NCBI RefSeq assembly: GCF_903645315.1
Contig: NZ_CAHJXL010000001.1
Location: forward strand, 248,001-312,000
Length of the DNA stretch: 64,000 nucleotides
Source: Victivallis sp. Marseille-Q1083
Lineage (GTDB): Bacteria > Verrucomicrobiota > Lentisphaeria > Victivallales > Victivallaceae
Direction of reading: 5' to 3'
Positions 7,053 through 17,343 of this stretch are shown in pieces. Position 1 is the stretch's first letter. Every line of letters begins with the position of its first letter. The notes below the pieces were generated by a model, which worked only from the letters and a program-made list of their open reading frames with translations, had not been told where the DNA came from and ran no database searches. The translations under genes were made by a program, and so were the position numbers.

Positions 7053-7478
7053 ATGCCCCGGAATTGTGAAAAAAATTATCTGTTTCAACTGCCCAATGAA
7101 CTCGACGAATTGATGCACCTGGCCGGGAACATCAGGCAGTTGGAAGCGTACCGGCAACTGAGTCCGCAGGCGCGTTACACTCTCGATCTGGCCCTGGAAG
7201 AGATGGCGACCAACATCATCAAATACGGCTACGACAATACGGAACCGCGCTCCATTGAAATCGGCATTCATTTCAATCCCGGCGAAGTGATCCTGACGCT
7301 CTGCGACGACGGCCATGAATTCAATCCGCTGACCGTGACGCCGAGTTCGCTGGAAAGCGAACTGGCCGAATGCCCGGTCGGCGGACTCGGCATTCATCTT
7401 ATCAAGAATATGGTCCGCTCGATGGACTACGTCCGGCAGAACAACCGCAACATTCTGGTCATCGTCATCGACCGGTAA
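7053..7478 (+). CDS. RsbW-like anti-sigma / serine kinase (HATPase)
   Basis: A 141-residue GHKL ATP-binding protein of the anti-sigma factor kinase type. The N box is EEMATNIIKYGYDN (about 49-62), the G1 box is DDGHEFNP (about 88-95), and the G2 box is GGLGIHLIKNM (about 117-127). These kinases phosphorylate an STAS antagonist and bind a sigma factor or other partner. In the same operon lies a SpoIIE-type phosphatase, giving two of the three parts of a partner switch. No STAS protein is present in the window. An earlier frame start at 6951 would overlap ybaK; the ATG at 7053 fits the family N-terminus. Confidence 0.88.
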   Translation: MPRNCEKNYLFQLPNELDELMHLAGNIRQLEAYRQLSPQARYTLDLALEEMATNIIKYGYDNTEPRSIEIGIHFNPGEVILTLCDDGHEFNPLTVTPSSLESELAECPVGGLGIHLIKNMVRSMDYVRQNNRNILVIVIDR

Positions 7479-7951
7479 AACCGCGCTGCTCCGTCTCCCC
7501 TTCCCCATAGGGAAAGTGCGCTGCCAGAAAACCGCCCCAATCGGCCTCCAATGGCACCGACAACAATTTCGCCGGGCACGCCTGCTGCAGCCGTTCCGTA
7601 AAAGCAAAAGCGTTGCAATGGTAGCGCCGGCGCAACTGAGCCGGCCAACGCCGGATCATATCGCCGATCAATGCCTGCGTGCATTCCATCAAAGCCGCGA
7701 TGGCCGGCGACGACGCCAGCGGTTCCAACTTCGGCCCGCCAGAACGCACCAGCAGGCAGACATCCGCCAGTTTCCATTGCCGCCAAGCTTCGAATTTCCG
7801 TTCCGGCGCGCTGCCGGCAAACCAGATGCTCCAGGTTGGCAGCGGCTGACACCACACCTCCCCGCCGGCCAGACTCAACAGCACCGCATCGTCGGCCGGC
7901 ACTTCCCAGCCCGCCGGGAAACGCCGCATCAAAGTACTCTTGCCGACCCCG

Positions 7952-7955
7952 CTAG
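7952..7955. repeat. 4-bp target duplication CTAG (left)
   Basis: CTAG directly before the left end of the IS1380-family element; the same four bases follow the right end at 9537-9540. The site sits inside a GCTAGC palindrome, so a 6-bp GCTAGC duplication with the IS one base shorter at each end is equally consistent. Confidence 0.8.
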
Positions 7956-9536
7956 CCTGAATATTGCGTAAATTTTCAAAAACAAAGAGGCAGATTCTCG
8001 ACTAATATATTATATTGTAATATTTTACGTGACAATATAACGCCGAGGTCTGCCAATGACAAAATGTAATGTTTCGATTCCGGTCTTTCAAGGTCCGAAA
8101 AGCAGAAAAATTGAATTCAATTTCGCCGGTGGAGATATCAGCAGTGACGGCGGGTTGCTTTTTGTGAAAGAATTCGACCGCAAACTCGGTTTGACCCGGC
8201 GCGCCGGTAACCTGCTGGATTCTTTTGATCTTCGACAGCCCGGAAAAGTTGAGCATTCCTATCTGAGCATGCTTCGTCAACGAGTTTTTGGTTTGGTTGC
8301 CGGCCATGAAGATCTCAATGACCATCATGAATTGCGAACTGATCCGCTGATTCAAACTGTTGTCGGTCGTGATCGTCAACTCGCCACTCCAAGCACTTTA
8401 TGTCGATTCGAAAATGGAATCGATCGTCGTGCTTGCGTAGATTTGAGCCGATTGTTTGTCGAATTCTTTATCGAAAGTTTTTCCACGCCGCCTCGAGAAT
8501 TGATTCTTGATTTCGATGCTACCGATGACCTCACTTACGGGATGCAGGAAAATCGCTTTTTTCATGGCTATTATGACCACTATTGCTTTTTGCCGTTGTA
8601 TGTTTTCTGCGGGGATCAATTGCTTGTGGCTTATTTGCGTCCATCAAAAATTGATGCGGCCAAGCATGCTTGGGCGATTCTCTCGCTACTGGTAAAGCGC
8701 TTTCGGCAGAAATGGCCGAAGGTTAAGATTATTTTCCGGGGAGACAGTGGCTTTTGTCGGCAGAAAATGCTGAACTGGTGTGATAAAAATGAGGTCAAAT
8801 ATATTGTCGGATTGGCGAAAAATCCACGTTTGCTGGAATTATCAAAAGATCTTCAAGTGAAAGCGGAAGCACTTTACAACGAAACACATGAAAAAGCAAA
8901 ACTGTTTACTCAGTTCGAATATGCGGCAGGAACTTGGAAATACCCGCGCCGGGTGATTGCCAAAGCGGAATTCAACTCCCCCGGACCGAATAATCGTTTT
9001 ATCGTCACCAATCTTGATGATGATGGACAATATCTTTATGAAAAAGTCTATTGCGCCCGAGGTGAGATGGAAAACAGGATCAAGGAACAGCAGCTGGATC
9101 TTTTCGCTGATCGGACGAGCTGCCATGACTTTGCGGCAAATCAATTCCGGCTTCTGCTTTCAAGTTTGGCTTATATTCTCATGGAACGGTTTCGGGCATT
9201 GTTGTTGACAGGAACTCAATTTGCCGAGGCTACCTGCGGCAGCATTCGCTTATACCTGGTGAAAATCGGTGCCATTATTCGGCGGAATACCAGAAAAATT
9301 TATGTTGCTCTTTCAAGTGCTTGTCCAAATCAGGAACTCCTCCGCTTGATCGCTGCGAAAATCATCGCTTGGGAATAAAACCTTGGAGAGCTGTCCCCGG
9401 CTCGCCGAACAACAACGGGGGAAAGGGGGAATATGCTCAATTTGCAAAAAAACGACAATATCCGACTCTGAAAATAAAAACTTCCGAATCTTCTGAACAT
9501 TTCTCGACGATTCGAAAGTTTCATGCAACATTCAGG
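7956..9536 (+). mobile_element. IS1380-family insertion sequence, complete
   Basis: A 1581-bp element with imperfect terminal inverted repeats beginning CCTGAAT (left CCTGAATATTGCGTAAA, right CCTGAATGTTGCATGAAA on the opposite strand). It carries one full-length transposase. Its 4-bp target duplication and CC... ends suit the IS1380 family. Base composition is AT-richer than the host genes, consistent with recent arrival. Internally deleted relatives lie at 14948-15021 and 16911-17343. Confidence 0.9.
8056..9378 (+). CDS. IS1380 family transposase
   Basis: A 440-residue DDE transposase. The N-terminal 'GGDISSDGGLLFVKEFD' segment and the LILDFDATDD block, carrying the first catalytic aspartate, are typical of the IS1380 group, as is the FRGDSGFCR block with the second aspartate (about residue 234) and the E-rich region near ARGEMENRIKEQQ. 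It fills most of the insertion sequence and appears intact, so the element may be active. Confidence 0.95.
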   Translation: MTKCNVSIPVFQGPKSRKIEFNFAGGDISSDGGLLFVKEFDRKLGLTRRAGNLLDSFDLRQPGKVEHSYLSMLRQRVFGLVAGHEDLNDHHELRTDPLIQTVVGRDRQLATPSTLCRFENGIDRRACVDLSRLFVEFFIESFSTPPRELILDFDATDDLTYGMQENRFFHGYYDHYCFLPLYVFCGDQLLVAYLRPSKIDAAKHAWAILSLLVKRFRQKWPKVKIIFRGDSGFCRQKMLNWCDKNEVKYIVGLAKNPRLLELSKDLQVKAEALYNETHEKAKLFTQFEYAAGTWKYPRRVIAKAEFNSPGPNNRFIVTNLDDDGQYLYEKVYCARGEMENRIKEQQLDLFADRTSCHDFAANQFRLLLSSLAYILMERFRALLLTGTQFAEATCGSIRLYLVKIGAIIRRNTRKIYVALSSACPNQELLRLIAAKIIAWE

Positions 9537-9540
9537 CTAG
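9537..9540. repeat. 4-bp target duplication CTAG (right)
   Basis: Right-hand copy of the duplication flanking the IS1380-family insertion. Confidence 0.8.
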
Positions 9541-9919
9541 CGCCGCCGACCAGCAGGCCGCGGCCATTGCGCACCGCCAGCCCGCCATGAAACAACAGGC
9601 TGCCGCCGGGCAGCAATGCCCCCAGCAGGCCATAGTAAAAAATATGACGCCACAGCAACCCGGCGGAACGTTTCGGATTCTCCGGATCGAAACAACTCGA
9701 TCCGTACCAGCGGCATTCCGCCGTCGCCAACGTCAGACGGCCTCCCGTTTCGATACAGATGCGGCAATGCGAGACCGTTTCACCGCTCCCGGCCGAATCA
9801 AAACCGGCGATCGCCGCCAGGTGCGCCAAGTGCTGGCACGCCTGCCGGCCAATCGCCTGATAATGACAGCTTTGGCCGCCGGGCAGCGGCAAATAACAAT
9901 TCAACCCCATGCCGCAAAT

Positions 9920-10126
9920 TTACGGCAGCGGATTGCCGTTCTCGTCTCCGGGACCCCAGGGGTTCGTGTTCGGATCGAAAACCAGTATATAGGGCTCGGC
10001 CCCGCCGTTGCCGCCGCCGGGGCCGGCTTCCACCGGCACCGAGTCGCCATTTACCGCCAAATCGCGCCATGACCCGAATGCGGTCAGTTCCGGCTTGTCA
10101 TATGGTATTTTTGTCCATTTCATCAT
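9920..10126 (-). CDS. RiPP precursor-like peptide with lasso-type leader
   Basis: A 68-residue peptide, too short for most annotation. The leader has YDKPELTAFG at about residues 9-18, matching the YxxPxLxxxG pattern that PqqD-like recognition proteins read in lasso-peptide leaders (the following Thr is Ala here). The C-terminal half is glycine, proline and asparagine-rich: GPGGGNGGAEP, then FDPNTNPWGPGDENGNPLP. Acidic residues 7-8 positions after glycines could allow a macrolactam, but the core boundary is unknown. Start: ATG at 10126 with AGGATAGG upstream; a GTG at 10132 is possible. It sits 18 bases after the giant surface protein and 9 before the HPr-kinase-like gene. No lasso cyclase, protease or PqqD gene is in the window. 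Confidence 0.6.
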   Translation of the reverse strand: MMKWTKIPYDKPELTAFGSWRDLAVNGDSVPVEAGPGGGNGGAEPYILVFDPNTNPWGPGDENGNPLP

Positions 10127-10144: not shown

Positions 10145-13100
10145 TCAGGCCAAATAGCCGTTCTTGCTGACCAGCGAACGATCGGCAGCATCGTACAGTT
10201 GCAAACCATCCGCCGCCGCCATCGACAAATCCGCCCCGAAACTGCCGTTATCCGCCAACTGCATCGAAGCCGACCAATCACCCAGCAGCGAATTGCCGGT
10301 CGGCACCTCGGGTTCCTTCCAGAACAGCGACAGCTTGCCTTCCTTCAGCTCCAGTCCCCATTCATAGCTGCCGATCGCCACCGTCGACGAACTGTTGACG
10401 GCAACGGATTTGGAAAGACTGTCGAAAGTCACATTGAACAATTTTCCAGTCAACGAAGCCAACAGTTCAGCAGTCGAATCGATCAACAGGAAGCTGCCGG
10501 ACTTCTGACCGTCCAGCGCCGCCGAAGTGATCGTAACGCTCCGGCGGGCGGTATCGGCAATCGAAAAATCCATGCCATTCTTAACCGTCAACATCGCCGT
10601 TCCGGCAGAAGCATAATCGCGGGAACTCAAATCGAACTCATAAGCGGTAAAGCTGCCGCCCGCCGGCAATTCCCTGGTCAAATTGACGCTGCTGTTGCCG
10701 GCTATCGTCAGCTTATAAACGTCGACCACTGTCGCATTGAAATCGCCGGTATAATCGACGAAAGCCAAGGTGCTCTGCTCCTCATCGAGCAAACCGCCGA
10801 TGGCGCCGCTGCCGATCGCTTTGCCGCTGCCGTTCACATAGCCGTCGAACTGCAACCGCTCACCGGACCCGGTAAAGGTGATCCGGCCGGAATCGACCGT
10901 CGCCACCGCACCGGCGCCGTTGGCGTAACCGCCCAGGAAAATCGACCCATTGATGGTCACCGCCGCACTGGCCGTATCAATCCGGATCGACGCGCCGCCG
11001 GTAACCGTTGAAGTACTGCCGGCGCCGGCAAAACCGCCGCCGTAGATATCTTTGTTGAACGTACCGCCGGAAATATTGATTGAAGTGCCGCCTTGCACCG
11101 AAGCGCTGCCGCCATGACCGGCCCGGCTGCCGCCCAGTAAAAATCCGAGGTCGGAGGCGCCGCTGACATTGATCTCAACCCCGTTATGGATGACATCCTC
11201 CGCCTGGGCGGCATTGACATAGCTGCCGCCGAACAACCAGCCGGAATCACCGACCAGTTGCGTCGCATCGACCAATTCAACCGTCACTTTGCCGTCGACA
11301 CCGGAAATGACCTTCTGAGAACCGGTCCCTTCGTTGTAATTGCCGCCGTGCACCAAGCCGGTCAATGTGGCGCCGTTCACCGTCAGCGTGATATTTCCAG
11401 TCACAGTGCCGCCGGCGCCGGACGCATTTTCCACCGTGCCATCCGCCTTCGCACTGTTCAGCGCCCCGGTATAACCGGCCAGGATTCCGCCATAAATATT
11501 CGGCTTGGCGCTGAAATCCATCCCCTGATTGATCGTCAAAGCGATATTGCCGCCGACATTGCCGATGCCGCCGCCGTACAGGACATTGGTCACGCTGCCG
11601 CCATTCATTTCAATGGTGATGTCGCCATTGACCGCGCCATCGGCGCCGCCGCCATAAAATTTCCAGTAGGAACCATCGTTGACGGTCACGTTCACCGTTT
11701 TGTCGACCGCGCCCTGCAGGCCGCCGCCATAGAAATAATTGATTCTGGCGCCGTTCAAATTCACCACGACCGAATCCACCCCCGCTTTGTAACCGCCGCC
11801 AAAGAAGTTGTAACCGACCACATTGGACAGCGTCACGTTGACTGCGGCCTTCCCGCGCATCCGGTTGCCGCCGCCGTAGAAACTGCCGGAATAGGTAGTG
11901 CCGGACAACTCCGCCACTCCGGTACCCAGGTAAATATGACCGTAAATTTTCGCTTCGCCGCCAATCAAAGTATTGCGGCCGCCCCCGAGGTCGATACTGC
12001 CGAATACCAGAGCGCCGGTACTCACCGTCACGTCGTCGTTGCTTGACGGATTCGCCACCCACTCGCCGTTGAACCAGCCGGAACGGATGGCATACGCCTC
12101 CGAACTGTTCTTCACCAAAGCGTGGAGCGCCTCCAGACTGGAAGTATCCGCGACATTCAACAACGCCAGAATGTGGTCAACGCCGGCGGCGGCGTATCCG
12201 GCAAACAAAGCACCATCGATCGTCAACATCAGGCCGTCGGCAGCGCTGACGGCGATCGCCCGGCCGCCGCCGTTGGCAATCACTTTGCCGGTAATCCGGG
12301 CGGCAACAGCCTCGACCTCCAGGCCGCTTTTCGGAATTTCCGCCGCCAATGTTCCACCGGCGCTGAGTCCGTAGGCATTGCCCATCGCCCCGGCATCCAC
12401 CAGCACATTGCCGGCCAATGCTGCGGACGCCGCCTGTCTGACGACGAAAGCCAGATCGTCCGCGGCCCTGATTCCCCAGGCGTTGATCGCATCCGGACCG
12501 CTGCCGACCACCCGGACGGTCACCTGTTCACCCAGTCCTTCATACTGAACGCTGCCGATATCCACGTCATCTCTGCCGGCAATTCCGGCCAGATTCACCC
12601 CGTCACCCGCCACCGCGGCAACCGCCGAAACCGTCACCGGCTGATCGACGATATCGAAAATGAGGGAAGCACTGATTTGATCGGAACCGAATTGAATCGC
12701 CGCCGCATCAGCGGTCACCTGTCCGGTTACCGTCACATTGCCGCTCAACGTCACCGTCGAATGCGTCGAATCGGTCAAGGTCAGCGCGGTCCCATCCGCC
12801 ACCGTCAGCGAACCGGTTTCGGTAACCAGCACATTCAACTTGGTGGAAACCGCCACCGTTTCCGCGGTCTCGATGACCAACGTATCCGTCTGATCAATAC
12901 TGGCGACCGTCAATGACAGCAAGCCTTCCACCTGATCGAGCTTGTAAGTTTTCAGACCGACGCGGACGGCAAAACCGTTGTTGACTTCAATCAACCGGGT
13001 AAAATCTTCGATATGGAAATACTGGCCGCTCAAATCATTGGCGGACATGAACTGATAGGTCTTATCTTCCCAATTGTCGTTTCGCAGATAAACAGCACCG

Positions 13101-14437
13101 TCCCCGATCAGCAAATTGCTCACCGTCAGACTCAAGCCATCGGCCGCCGGAAGATGAATATTCAGTTTTCCATCGGTTCCCAGCGTCAAATTTCCCCAAA
13201 AGTTTCCGACGCTGTATACGTCGACGGTACCGGAGGCAACCGTGAACTGGGCTTCACTCAAGTCGGCATTGCCGTTCAATATAAATTCCGTCCCGGGCTG
13301 GCTAGCCACATCCACCTTTTCGCCGGTAATAACTTTACCGCCGTCAATCTGCACTTTCCCGCTAATCTCGACATTCGAATCGCGAACCTCCAACTGTCCG
13401 CCCGAGGAAATTACAATATCGGTGAGCAACCCACCCTTCGATACCACCACCCGGCCGCCGGCCTGGACGGTCGTATTCCAAGACAGTCCGCGCGATCCCA
13501 CAATCTGCAGACCGCCATCCACAATCGTCGCTTTTCTGGCAGAACCATTATTGCTGACTTCCTGGATGCCGCCCACCTGCGTATCTTCGGCGACAGCCCG
13601 CCCGCTGCTAATCACTTGACTTCCGCCGGCTAAAATGACCGCTCCGGAATCCAATCCGCGACTGGTAACAATCTGCCGGCCGCCAGACGAGATCACCGTA
13701 CGGTATGTCTCCCCGCCACTCACATACTGCGTCCCGTCAGCCTTAATTACGGTACTGCTCGCAATTCCATCGGTAAACACGGTTTGCGAACCTCCGGATT
13801 CGATGCTGGTTTGTTCGGCCGTCGCGTCCCCCCGCACTTCTTCACGCCCGCCGGCAATAACGACGGTCTGATAAGAACGGCCTTCCAATACCAATGTCGT
13901 ACTTACACCAACTACTTGAGTGGAGCTGACACTGCCGCCGTATTCAACCGTTAATTGTCCTTCCTCCCGTACCAGCGTATTCACCGCCTTGTTATTGTCA
14001 TGGACGACAAAAGCAACTCCGCCTCCAACAACGAAATTGACCGCGCTTCCGTTTTCCACAGAAAAAATGCGTCCGGTGACCGTATCCGAACCGGTAACTT
14101 TCGTCACGGTAGTTTCAGTCGCCACCCCGCCGCCGGCTTCCAAAATTACATCAATGGCGGTACCTTGTTCTCGCACGTTGAGCTGTCCGCCCGATTGGAC
14201 TACAGTATTCGATGCAGTTGCATTGACAAGCACGTTCTGCAAGCCGTATTCTTTCCCGTTTCCCGACAACGTCATGCCGTTCGCTTCGGCGCCGGCCAGC
14301 AAAGTTTGCTCCCCGCCGGCAGTCACCCAGCCGTCAACAGCTTTTCCGCCGGAAGAAACAATCTGCATTCCTCCAGAGCCAACGGTCTCGCCGCTCACGA
14401 CCTTACCACTCTCGACGGGCGTTGTAAAATCAGCCAT
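10145..14437 (-). CDS. Giant AIDA-repeat surface/adhesin protein
   Basis: A 1430-residue protein made of beta-solenoid repeats. Residues about 10-385 hold AIDA-like repeats (steps such as VVSSGGKA, GGRQIV, GGSQVISSG, ending in paired glycines) with a valine-rich ladder. Residues about 820-1160 hold a second repeat class with 'YGGG' steps (FYGGGADGAVNG, FYGGGLQGAVDK, YGGGIGNVGG). No cysteines or catalytic motif are obvious. No signal peptide is seen and the C-terminus lacks an autotransporter beta-barrel, so export route is unknown. The start at 14437 is fixed by GGAGG six bases upstream. It is the first gene of the operon with the RiPP-like peptide. Confidence 0.85.
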   Translation of the reverse strand: MADFTTPVESGKVVSGETVGSGGMQIVSSGGKAVDGWVTAGGEQTLLAGAEANGMTLSGNGKEYGLQNVLVNATASNTVVQSGGQLNVREQGTAIDVILEAGGGVATETTVTKVTGSDTVTGRIFSVENGSAVNFVVGGGVAFVVHDNNKAVNTLVREEGQLTVEYGGSVSSTQVVGVSTTLVLEGRSYQTVVIAGGREEVRGDATAEQTSIESGGSQTVFTDGIASSTVIKADGTQYVSGGETYRTVISSGGRQIVTSRGLDSGAVILAGGSQVISSGRAVAEDTQVGGIQEVSNNGSARKATIVDGGLQIVGSRGLSWNTTVQAGGRVVVSKGGLLTDIVISSGGQLEVRDSNVEISGKVQIDGGKVITGEKVDVASQPGTEFILNGNADLSEAQFTVASGTVDVYSVGNFWGNLTLGTDGKLNIHLPAADGLSLTVSNLLIGDGAVYLRNDNWEDKTYQFMSANDLSGQYFHIEDFTRLIEVNNGFAVRVGLKTYKLDQVEGLLSLTVASIDQTDTLVIETAETVAVSTKLNVLVTETGSLTVADGTALTLTDSTHSTVTLSGNVTVTGQVTADAAAIQFGSDQISASLIFDIVDQPVTVSAVAAVAGDGVNLAGIAGRDDVDIGSVQYEGLGEQVTVRVVGSGPDAINAWGIRAADDLAFVVRQAASAALAGNVLVDAGAMGNAYGLSAGGTLAAEIPKSGLEVEAVAARITGKVIANGGGRAIAVSAADGLMLTIDGALFAGYAAAGVDHILALLNVADTSSLEALHALVKNSSEAYAIRSGWFNGEWVANPSSNDDVTVSTGALVFGSIDLGGGRNTLIGGEAKIYGHIYLGTGVAELSGTTYSGSFYGGGNRMRGKAAVNVTLSNVVGYNFFGGGYKAGVDSVVVNLNGARINYFYGGGLQGAVDKTVNVTVNDGSYWKFYGGGADGAVNGDITIEMNGGSVTNVLYGGGIGNVGGNIALTINQGMDFSAKPNIYGGILAGYTGALNSAKADGTVENASGAGGTVTGNITLTVNGATLTGLVHGGNYNEGTGSQKVISGVDGKVTVELVDATQLVGDSGWLFGGSYVNAAQAEDVIHNGVEINVSGASDLGFLLGGSRAGHGGSASVQGGTSINISGGTFNKDIYGGGFAGAGSTSTVTGGASIRIDTASAAVTINGSIFLGGYANGAGAVATVDSGRITFTGSGERLQFDGYVNGSGKAIGSGAIGGLLDEEQSTLAFVDYTGDFNATVVDVYKLTIAGNSSVNLTRELPAGGSFTAYEFDLSSRDYASAGTAMLTVKNGMDFSIADTARRSVTITSAALDGQKSGSFLLIDSTAELLASLTGKLFNVTFDSLSKSVAVNSSSTVAIGSYEWGLELKEGKLSLFWKEPEVPTGNSLLGDWSASMQLADNGSFGADLSMAAADGLQLYDAADRSLVSKNGYLA

Positions 14438-14490
14438 AAAAAACCTCCACAAGCATTTAATTGCCAAATCTTTCCAAATTCATTTCAACC

Positions 14491-14947: not shown

Positions 14948-15021
14948 CCTGAATGTTGCATGAAACTTTCGAATCGTCGAGAAATGTTCAGAAGATTCGG
15001 AGGTTTCATGCAACATTCAGG
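14948..15021. mobile_element. 74-bp IS1380-derived mini-element
   Basis: Flanked by a perfect 19-bp inverted repeat (CCTGAATGTTGCATGAAAC). The first 54 bases are the same as the terminal 54 bases of the right end of the IS1380 element at 7956-9536; the rest is an inverted copy of the tip. It has no coding capacity and no visible target duplication. It can be read as the remains of a deleted IS or a small mobilisable unit. Confidence 0.75.
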
Positions 15022-16910: not shown

Positions 16911-17343
16911 CCTGAACATTGCATGAAACTGTCGAATTGTCGAGAAATGTTCAGAAGATTCGGAAGTTTTTATTTTCAGAGTCGAATGTTGTCGTTTTTC
17001 AGTAAATTGAGCATATCCCCCTTCCCCCCGTTGTTGTTCTGCAAGCCGGGGACAGCTCTTCTGATCCCCGCAGAAAACATACAATGGAAGAAAACAATAG
17101 TGATCATAATAACCGTGAAAAAAACGATTTTCCTGCATACCGTAGGTGAATCGTCAGTGGCATCGAAATCAAGAATCAATTCACATTGCCCGCAACCAGC
17201 GCAAATACTCTTTGCCGAAGCATCTCCAGACAAGAGTGTTTCACTTTGCCGGACTGTCGAAGATCGAAAGAGGTCAATCATTTTCCCGCTCGGCTATCGA
17301 GGTTCTGCCTCTTTGTTTTGTGGAATTTTATGCAATATTCAGG
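16911..17343 (-). mobile_element. IS1380-family relic, internally deleted
   Basis: 433 bp bounded by CCTGAACATTGCATGAAAC on the left and ATGCAATATTCAGG on the right. Inside are recognisable stretches of the transposase of the element at 7956-9536 (for example MQENRFFHGYYDHYCFLPLY on the minus strand), but most of the gene is missing. No flanking duplication is visible. It is oriented opposite to the complete copy. Confidence 0.8.

Follow-up and report, generated by a model that had tools for sequence, protein, structure and literature searches.

A 68-residue peptide encoded in the genome of Victivallis sp. Marseille-Q1083 is probably the precursor of a RiPP made by an LPP-like (linear, kinase-modified) pathway. 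Its gene lies in the stretch of 64,000 nucleotides analyzed here (the window), and this reading is built on features visible in the DNA: the peptide, its leader motif, a gene order that recurs in relatives, co-located enzyme families and an insertion element lodged in the neighboring kinase gene. Regarding the course of the pathway, a PqqD-type recognition protein would bind the YDKPEL leader, and a ScmC-like HPr-kinase would phosphorylate the serine of a Gly-Asp-Ser triplet predicted to open the Gly/Pro/Asn-containing and acidic C-terminal part. The leader would subsequently be removed at a presumed cleavage site, in relatives probably via an archaeal-type signal-peptidase-like protein, and the core exported, in relatives probably via an ABC transporter. 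The core may finally act at the cell surface alongside the co-encoded giant repeat protein, a partnership presumed beyond the gene order itself. Among the open-licence papers searched, no earlier description of a surface-protein-linked peptide/kinase cassette was found.

Peptide, surface protein and split kinase gene

The peptide frame runs on the minus strand from 10126 down to 9920, and its 68-residue translation contains YDKPELTAFG, while the plus-strand reading of the same interval is interrupted by a stop. The ATG is preceded by AGGATAGG, which resembles a ribosome-binding site. The leader motif YDKPEL occupies residues 9-14 (10085..10102, minus strand) and corresponds to YEKPELI[DE][FY]xxW in the peptides of relatives, with which F17 and W20 are also in register; the peptide has no direct profile match in NCBIfam or Pfam. 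Its gene begins 18 bp after the stop codon of a giant surface protein built of AIDA / strand-loop-strand repeats (10145..14467, minus strand), which counts 1440 residues from a TTG start, ends in YLA and exceeds the cut-offs of PF16168 (59.5 bits) and TIGR04415 (55.9 bits). On the other side, 9 bp separate the peptide gene from the kinase ATG, and with such short spacings surface protein, peptide and kinase genes look like a single operon. The preliminary description had reported this 68-residue peptide with its YDKPELTAFG motif between an AIDA-repeat protein and an HPr-kinase-like gene; translation, profiles and spacing confirm it, on the minus strand. Its identification of the kinase also stands, the C-terminal piece matching the ScmC model TIGR04249 with 37.5 bits (under the cut-off of 125), while the splitting of that gene by an IS1380 element had been overlooked.

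The 5' piece of the kinase gene (9537..9910, minus strand) extends up to the element and includes one copy of CTAG. The element itself (7956..9536, plus strand), delimited by its ends and by the CTAG duplication on each flank, measures 1581 bp and encodes a transposase at 8056-9378 (NF033539, 394 bits). Beyond it, the 3' piece (7465..7955, minus strand) carries the second half of the Walker A motif, ADD and PLPTWS. The insertion point is inside the Walker A motif; indeed, once IS1380 is removed and the empty site joined, an open frame of 286 residues reading GGASGVGKST is restored. The genome holds at least 31 full-length copies of the element at 97% identity or more, the window copy included, a lower bound with 40 of 83 candidates scored. 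Further IS1380-like pieces flanking this region are seen in the ORF list of the window at 14953-15000 and 16923-17281, where the MLHETFESSRNVQKI end and fragments resembling the transposase recur.

The searches of the genome yielded no second kinase: with E up to 1e-10, the kinase profile returned the two IS-flanking halves only, among the 17 of 68 candidates scored, and the ScmC family search gave one extra weak match, which contains a stop (E 0.34). As IS1380 interrupts the single kinase gene recovered, the phosphorylation step has probably been lost in the present strain. The window would then represent a natural kinase knock-out, brought about by a recently expanded insertion element, and such a loss of the pathway in this strain, which we regard as likely, is compatible with the LPP-like explanation.

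The same genome encodes a paralogue peptide of 67 residues (C1:497029), which shares 52% identity with the window peptide across residues 2-67 (E 8.5e-9) and whose gene sits 21 bp behind that of a second surface protein; in the ORF list, no neighboring kinase was recognized. When the last 138 residues of this second surface protein are used as query, two places are returned in the genome, i.e., the protein itself and the window surface protein. As a peptide follows both, every surface protein found with this C-terminus has one peptide behind it. The paralogue peptide (L005:10030-10233) ends in a doubled DExGNP unit that the window peptide partly shares (DENGNP).

A kinase split by an element with many copies and a PqqD-family gene unlinked to the peptide might suggest that the peptide is a functionless, decaying remnant in this genome, or that frame and motif arose by chance. 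However, both peptides are intact and retain their 52% identity over the length, and motif-bearing frames occur in relatives far above chance expectation (see below). Taken together, this alternative is scarcely credible, and its chance version is excluded.

Related loci in relatives

Searching relatives with the peptide as query gave matches at E up to 0.1 in 8 of 61 genomes, mostly weak, several of them containing stops or sitting within long frames; the kinase was hence taken as the handle for finding related loci. Among 78 genomes of the family, 29 matched the ScmC family model (5 above its cut-off); a profile built from 21 of the kinases so found was then applied to the order, where 46 of the 137 genomes matched. 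In a sample of the phylum, the same profile matched in 40 of 387 genomes; 32 of these belong to the order, 4 others to the class and 4 lie further off. In a tree of 63 kinase sequences, the placement of the window kinase has a support of 0.22 only. Altogether, 66 kinase loci of relatives were fetched and a short YxxP ORF was kept as a related peptide in 24 of them. Left out were the Cys-rich SynChlorMet-type peptides of L052-L056, L114 and L115, the tandem short ones of L079, as well as L151 and L020 (the kinase of the latter was not sought). The remaining loci have no recognized peptide, including L064, L074 and L087, which do carry a surface protein. L079 (1240-1928) has at least four tandem short ORFs reading MEF/MEL..MKYVAPKMVxVSRRVVNT..GGSG, with genes for a ScmC-like kinase and a PqqD protein following downstream.

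The kept peptides stand behind an ORF of at least 350 residues in 20 of 24 cases, and 16 of these 20 ORFs end in [LI]A. Such an ending is unusual: the loci contain 312 ORFs of this size, LA is the ending of 22, and 18 of these 22 are the immediate partner of a peptide or kinase. Three of the four peptides lacking a large upstream ORF are near a contig end (L108, L113 and L149) and the fourth is preceded by another gene (L068); in L149 (725-2536), a 603-residue ORF stands between peptide and kinase. A PqqD-type gene is present within 3 kb of the peptide in 18 of the 24 cassettes by profile, and in L145 by tblastn. The six cassettes with none by profile include L145 and L149, which were outside the profile run and in which tblastn found PqqD in the former and not in the latter. 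Other genes located near the peptides encode a signal-peptidase-like protein (8 of 24), NTP_transf_5 (5), an ABC exporter (3) and a radical SAM enzyme (3).

Because these 24 peptides had been picked by their motif, the gaps between large ORF and kinase were tested separately, without picking. From 59 loci, 32 have a large same-strand ORF ending no more than 900 bp from the kinase, and the 20 gaps of at least 90 bp were retained, the 12 others being shorter. A Y..P.[LIVMFA] ORF occurs in 16 of the 20 gaps, versus 0.615 expected from dinucleotide shuffles and none of 20 on the reverse strand; one of the 16, in L060, is probably due to chance, and some of the upstream ORFs are other than surface proteins. 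The YxxPxL-type leader and the precursor role proposed in the preliminary description are thus supported by recurring motif ORFs with kinase and PqqD neighbors, and the co-occurrence of RiPP-modifying genes with homologs of the peptide, by which that role was to be judged, is borne out by the PqqD-type genes of the cassettes counted above.

The strict placement behind a surface protein (20 of 24), together with the one-to-one pairing of peptides and surface proteins with this C-terminus in the present genome, would also suit a small protein assisting the surface protein, such as a secretion adaptor, a chaperone or a regulator, for which the PqqD-type protein and the kinase would be docking partners only. 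Nevertheless, the radical SAM, signal-peptidase-like and NTP_transf_5 genes beside some members better suit the maturation of a peptide, and a conserved leader followed by a variable remainder is reminiscent of RiPP precursors. We therefore consider an accessory function unlikely and retain the precursor reading.

Enzyme families and comparison with LPP, SynChlorMet and lasso systems

Regarding the enzymes, comparison of the kinase profile with solved structures gave HPr kinase/phosphatases as best matches (1ko7, E 7e-8; 1jb1, E 1e-7), with unrelated P-loop proteins ranking next. Across the 21 aligned kinases of relatives, which are intact, a His, the Gly-Lys and Thr of the Walker A GKxT, an Asp-Asp pair and PTWS are invariant. 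For the PqqD profile, the best matches are the lasso recognition proteins TbiB1 (E 1e-12) and TfuB1, then 9x8z and 9x90. The present genome has a single PqqD-family protein above the Pfam cut-off, at C1:3186307, unlinked to either peptide; the possibility, raised beforehand, of an enzyme set encoded elsewhere is thus partly realized. The kinase and PqqD matches are mostly under the NCBIfam cut-offs.

Two examples of the relatives' signal-peptidase-like proteins match archaeal-type signal peptidase I with 33.6 and 37.3 bits (under the cut-off of 51.85), and GxSM, HR and GDNN are conserved in these ORFs. A first profile had drifted onto kinases and NTP transferases, so that only separate ORFs of 450-720 bp were counted, to the exclusion of the fused signal-peptidase/NTP-transferase ORFs of L108 and L109. 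An NTP_transf_5 example from relatives scores 110.9 bits, L058 carries a radical SAM enzyme with a SPASM domain and L078 an ABC exporter. In the ORF list, no signal peptidase, NTP transferase or ABC exporter was seen beside the window peptide, and no radical SAM gene was recognized around it.

LPPs were reported in 2026 (Nat Commun) from Bacillota, to which their authors call them restricted (PMC13381572). As described there, the lppAKBSDN set comprises YxxP precursors of variable length (35-200 residues), an HprK-like kinase, a discrete recognition protein, a SipW-like signal peptidase, an NTP transferase and an MsbA-like exporter, with no cyclase (PMC13381572). The kinase adds several phosphates onto the core Ser3 of A-Q-S, a serine located 18 residues past the leader Tyr, and changing Ser3 to Thr abolishes phosphorylation; the leader consensus is YxxPxVLxHQxIxFETxxS, and LPPs were presented with their final structure and role still unknown (PMC13381572).

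Several of these traits recur here. The window has a short precursor with a YxxP leader and, just downstream, a gene for an HprK-like kinase, albeit split by IS1380. In relatives, an HprK-like kinase is in most cassettes accompanied by a PqqD-type protein, and in some of them by an archaeal-type signal-peptidase-like protein, an NTP transferase or an ABC exporter; these families parallel the LPP set, and the precursors are likewise variable. As for the modified residue, the LPP serine is near the core start, where we also place the proposed serine. In contrast, the window peptide reads YDKPELTAFGSWRDLAVNG and, beyond YxxP, departs from the extended LPP leader consensus. Moreover, the discrete recognition protein is unlinked in the present genome (although close in most of the relatives' cassettes), the peptide gene comes after that of a giant repeat surface protein, and a radical SAM enzyme is added in some relatives' cassettes. 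The set of the present genome is scattered, with a broken kinase, and the lineage looks Gram-negative whereas LPPs are, for their authors, confined to Bacillota. Judged by gene content, the set matches LPPs rather than lasso peptides. An LPP-related enzyme set would hence recur next to a giant surface protein in a lineage of Gram-negative appearance.

SynChlorMet systems (TIGR04248, ScmD; TIGR04249, ScmC) share with the present loci a ScmC-like kinase and a ScmD-like PqqD protein, and related genomes encode Cys-rich precursors with YxxP leaders in such cassettes. In L052, L053, L054 and L114, which are SynChlorMet-like, the leaders read YxxPxL, and two radical SAM genes, a PqqD gene and an NTP transferase gene accompany them in the same genomes of the order. 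A SynChlorMet cassette is defined by two radical SAM genes; beside the window peptide, however, none was recognized in the ORF list, and the peptide lacks the Cys-rich repeats. A SynChlorMet assignment was rejected, as both scores are under the NCBIfam cut-offs (37.5 of 125 bits for ScmC with the C-terminal piece, and 83.9 of 100 bits for ScmD with the PqqD-family protein of the genome). No open-licence paper was found on SynChlorMet or on HPr-rel-A.

Phosphorylated, paeninodin-like lasso peptides resemble the present system by their YxxP/WxxP leader, PqqD-type protein, HPr-like kinase, NTP transferase and exporter, as presented in the LPP report (PMC13381572). A kinship with the machinery of phosphorylated lasso peptides and SynChlorMet cassettes, suggested by the preliminary description, is supported by the ScmC-like kinase and the PqqD-type genes of relatives. 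Through one leader and one kinase-plus-PqqD pair, LPPs and phosphorylated lasso peptides would thereby be tied to each other and to the SynChlorMet models, which are unpublished.

That the peptide might be a true lasso precursor, with cyclase and leader peptidase encoded elsewhere, is suggested by a YxxPxL motif followed by glycine and acidic residues, which suits a lasso leader and ring, and by the solved structures nearest to the PqqD profile, which are lasso recognition proteins. However, no match to the lasso B2 leader peptidase PF13471 exceeds the cut-off in the present genome (best 14.1 of 26 bits). Out of 137 genomes searched in the order, the family passes the cut-off in 4 (G001, G026, G050 and G061), whereas 22 of the 24 cassettes come from 15 other genomes of the order. 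Furthermore, PF00733 (Asn_synthase) has one full-length match in the present genome, an unlinked ORF of 642 residues that we take to be an ordinary asparagine synthetase, and three weak matches; these provide no evidence of a dedicated cyclase. A lasso precursor is thus very improbable: after the PF13471 searches of this genome and of the order, it was dropped as main reading, and with it the ring formation initially envisaged.

Proposed phosphorylation site and possible surface partner

If the pathway is LPP-like, the residue modified by the kinase is likely to be the Ser/Thr of a Gly-x-Ser/Thr triplet following the leader. In the window peptide, this triplet would correspond to G27-D28-S29 (10040..10048, minus strand), where we also propose the core start; Ser29 is 20 residues past the leader Tyr (residue 9). 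The site was derived from a set of 27 related peptides, not all independent, 24 of which bear a post-leader Gly. In 11 of these 24, a Ser or Thr stands two residues after the first such Gly, compared with 3.07 +/- 1.61 in shuffles (p 0.0002). The 13 others have neither residue at this position, and the paralogue of the same genome has Asp. As the sequences are partly dependent, 2 of the 11 matches are Thr and the paralogue has Asp, the acceptor is put forward as a proposal. In paeninodin, the phospho-acceptor is the C-terminal Ser; this alternative was rejected, since L068 alone among the collected peptides terminates in Ser.

The surface protein would provide kinase-modified linear RiPPs with a concrete partner, and hence with a function open to testing. 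We tentatively envisage, as a possibility that falls short of an even chance, a two-part surface system in which each giant [LI]A-ending repeat protein would have its own phosphorylated peptide, to which certain lineages would add a radical-SAM modification or nucleotidylation. Such a peptide would bind, cap, anchor or decorate the surface protein rather than serve as a free antibiotic or signal. Elsewhere, at L013:8090-10210 (G000 C1, about 1153000), a 706-residue protein matches PqqD weakly (17.1 bits) and contains M50 peptidase and HlyD-like domains; it adjoins adaptor-like and TolC-like ORFs and might belong to an export system.
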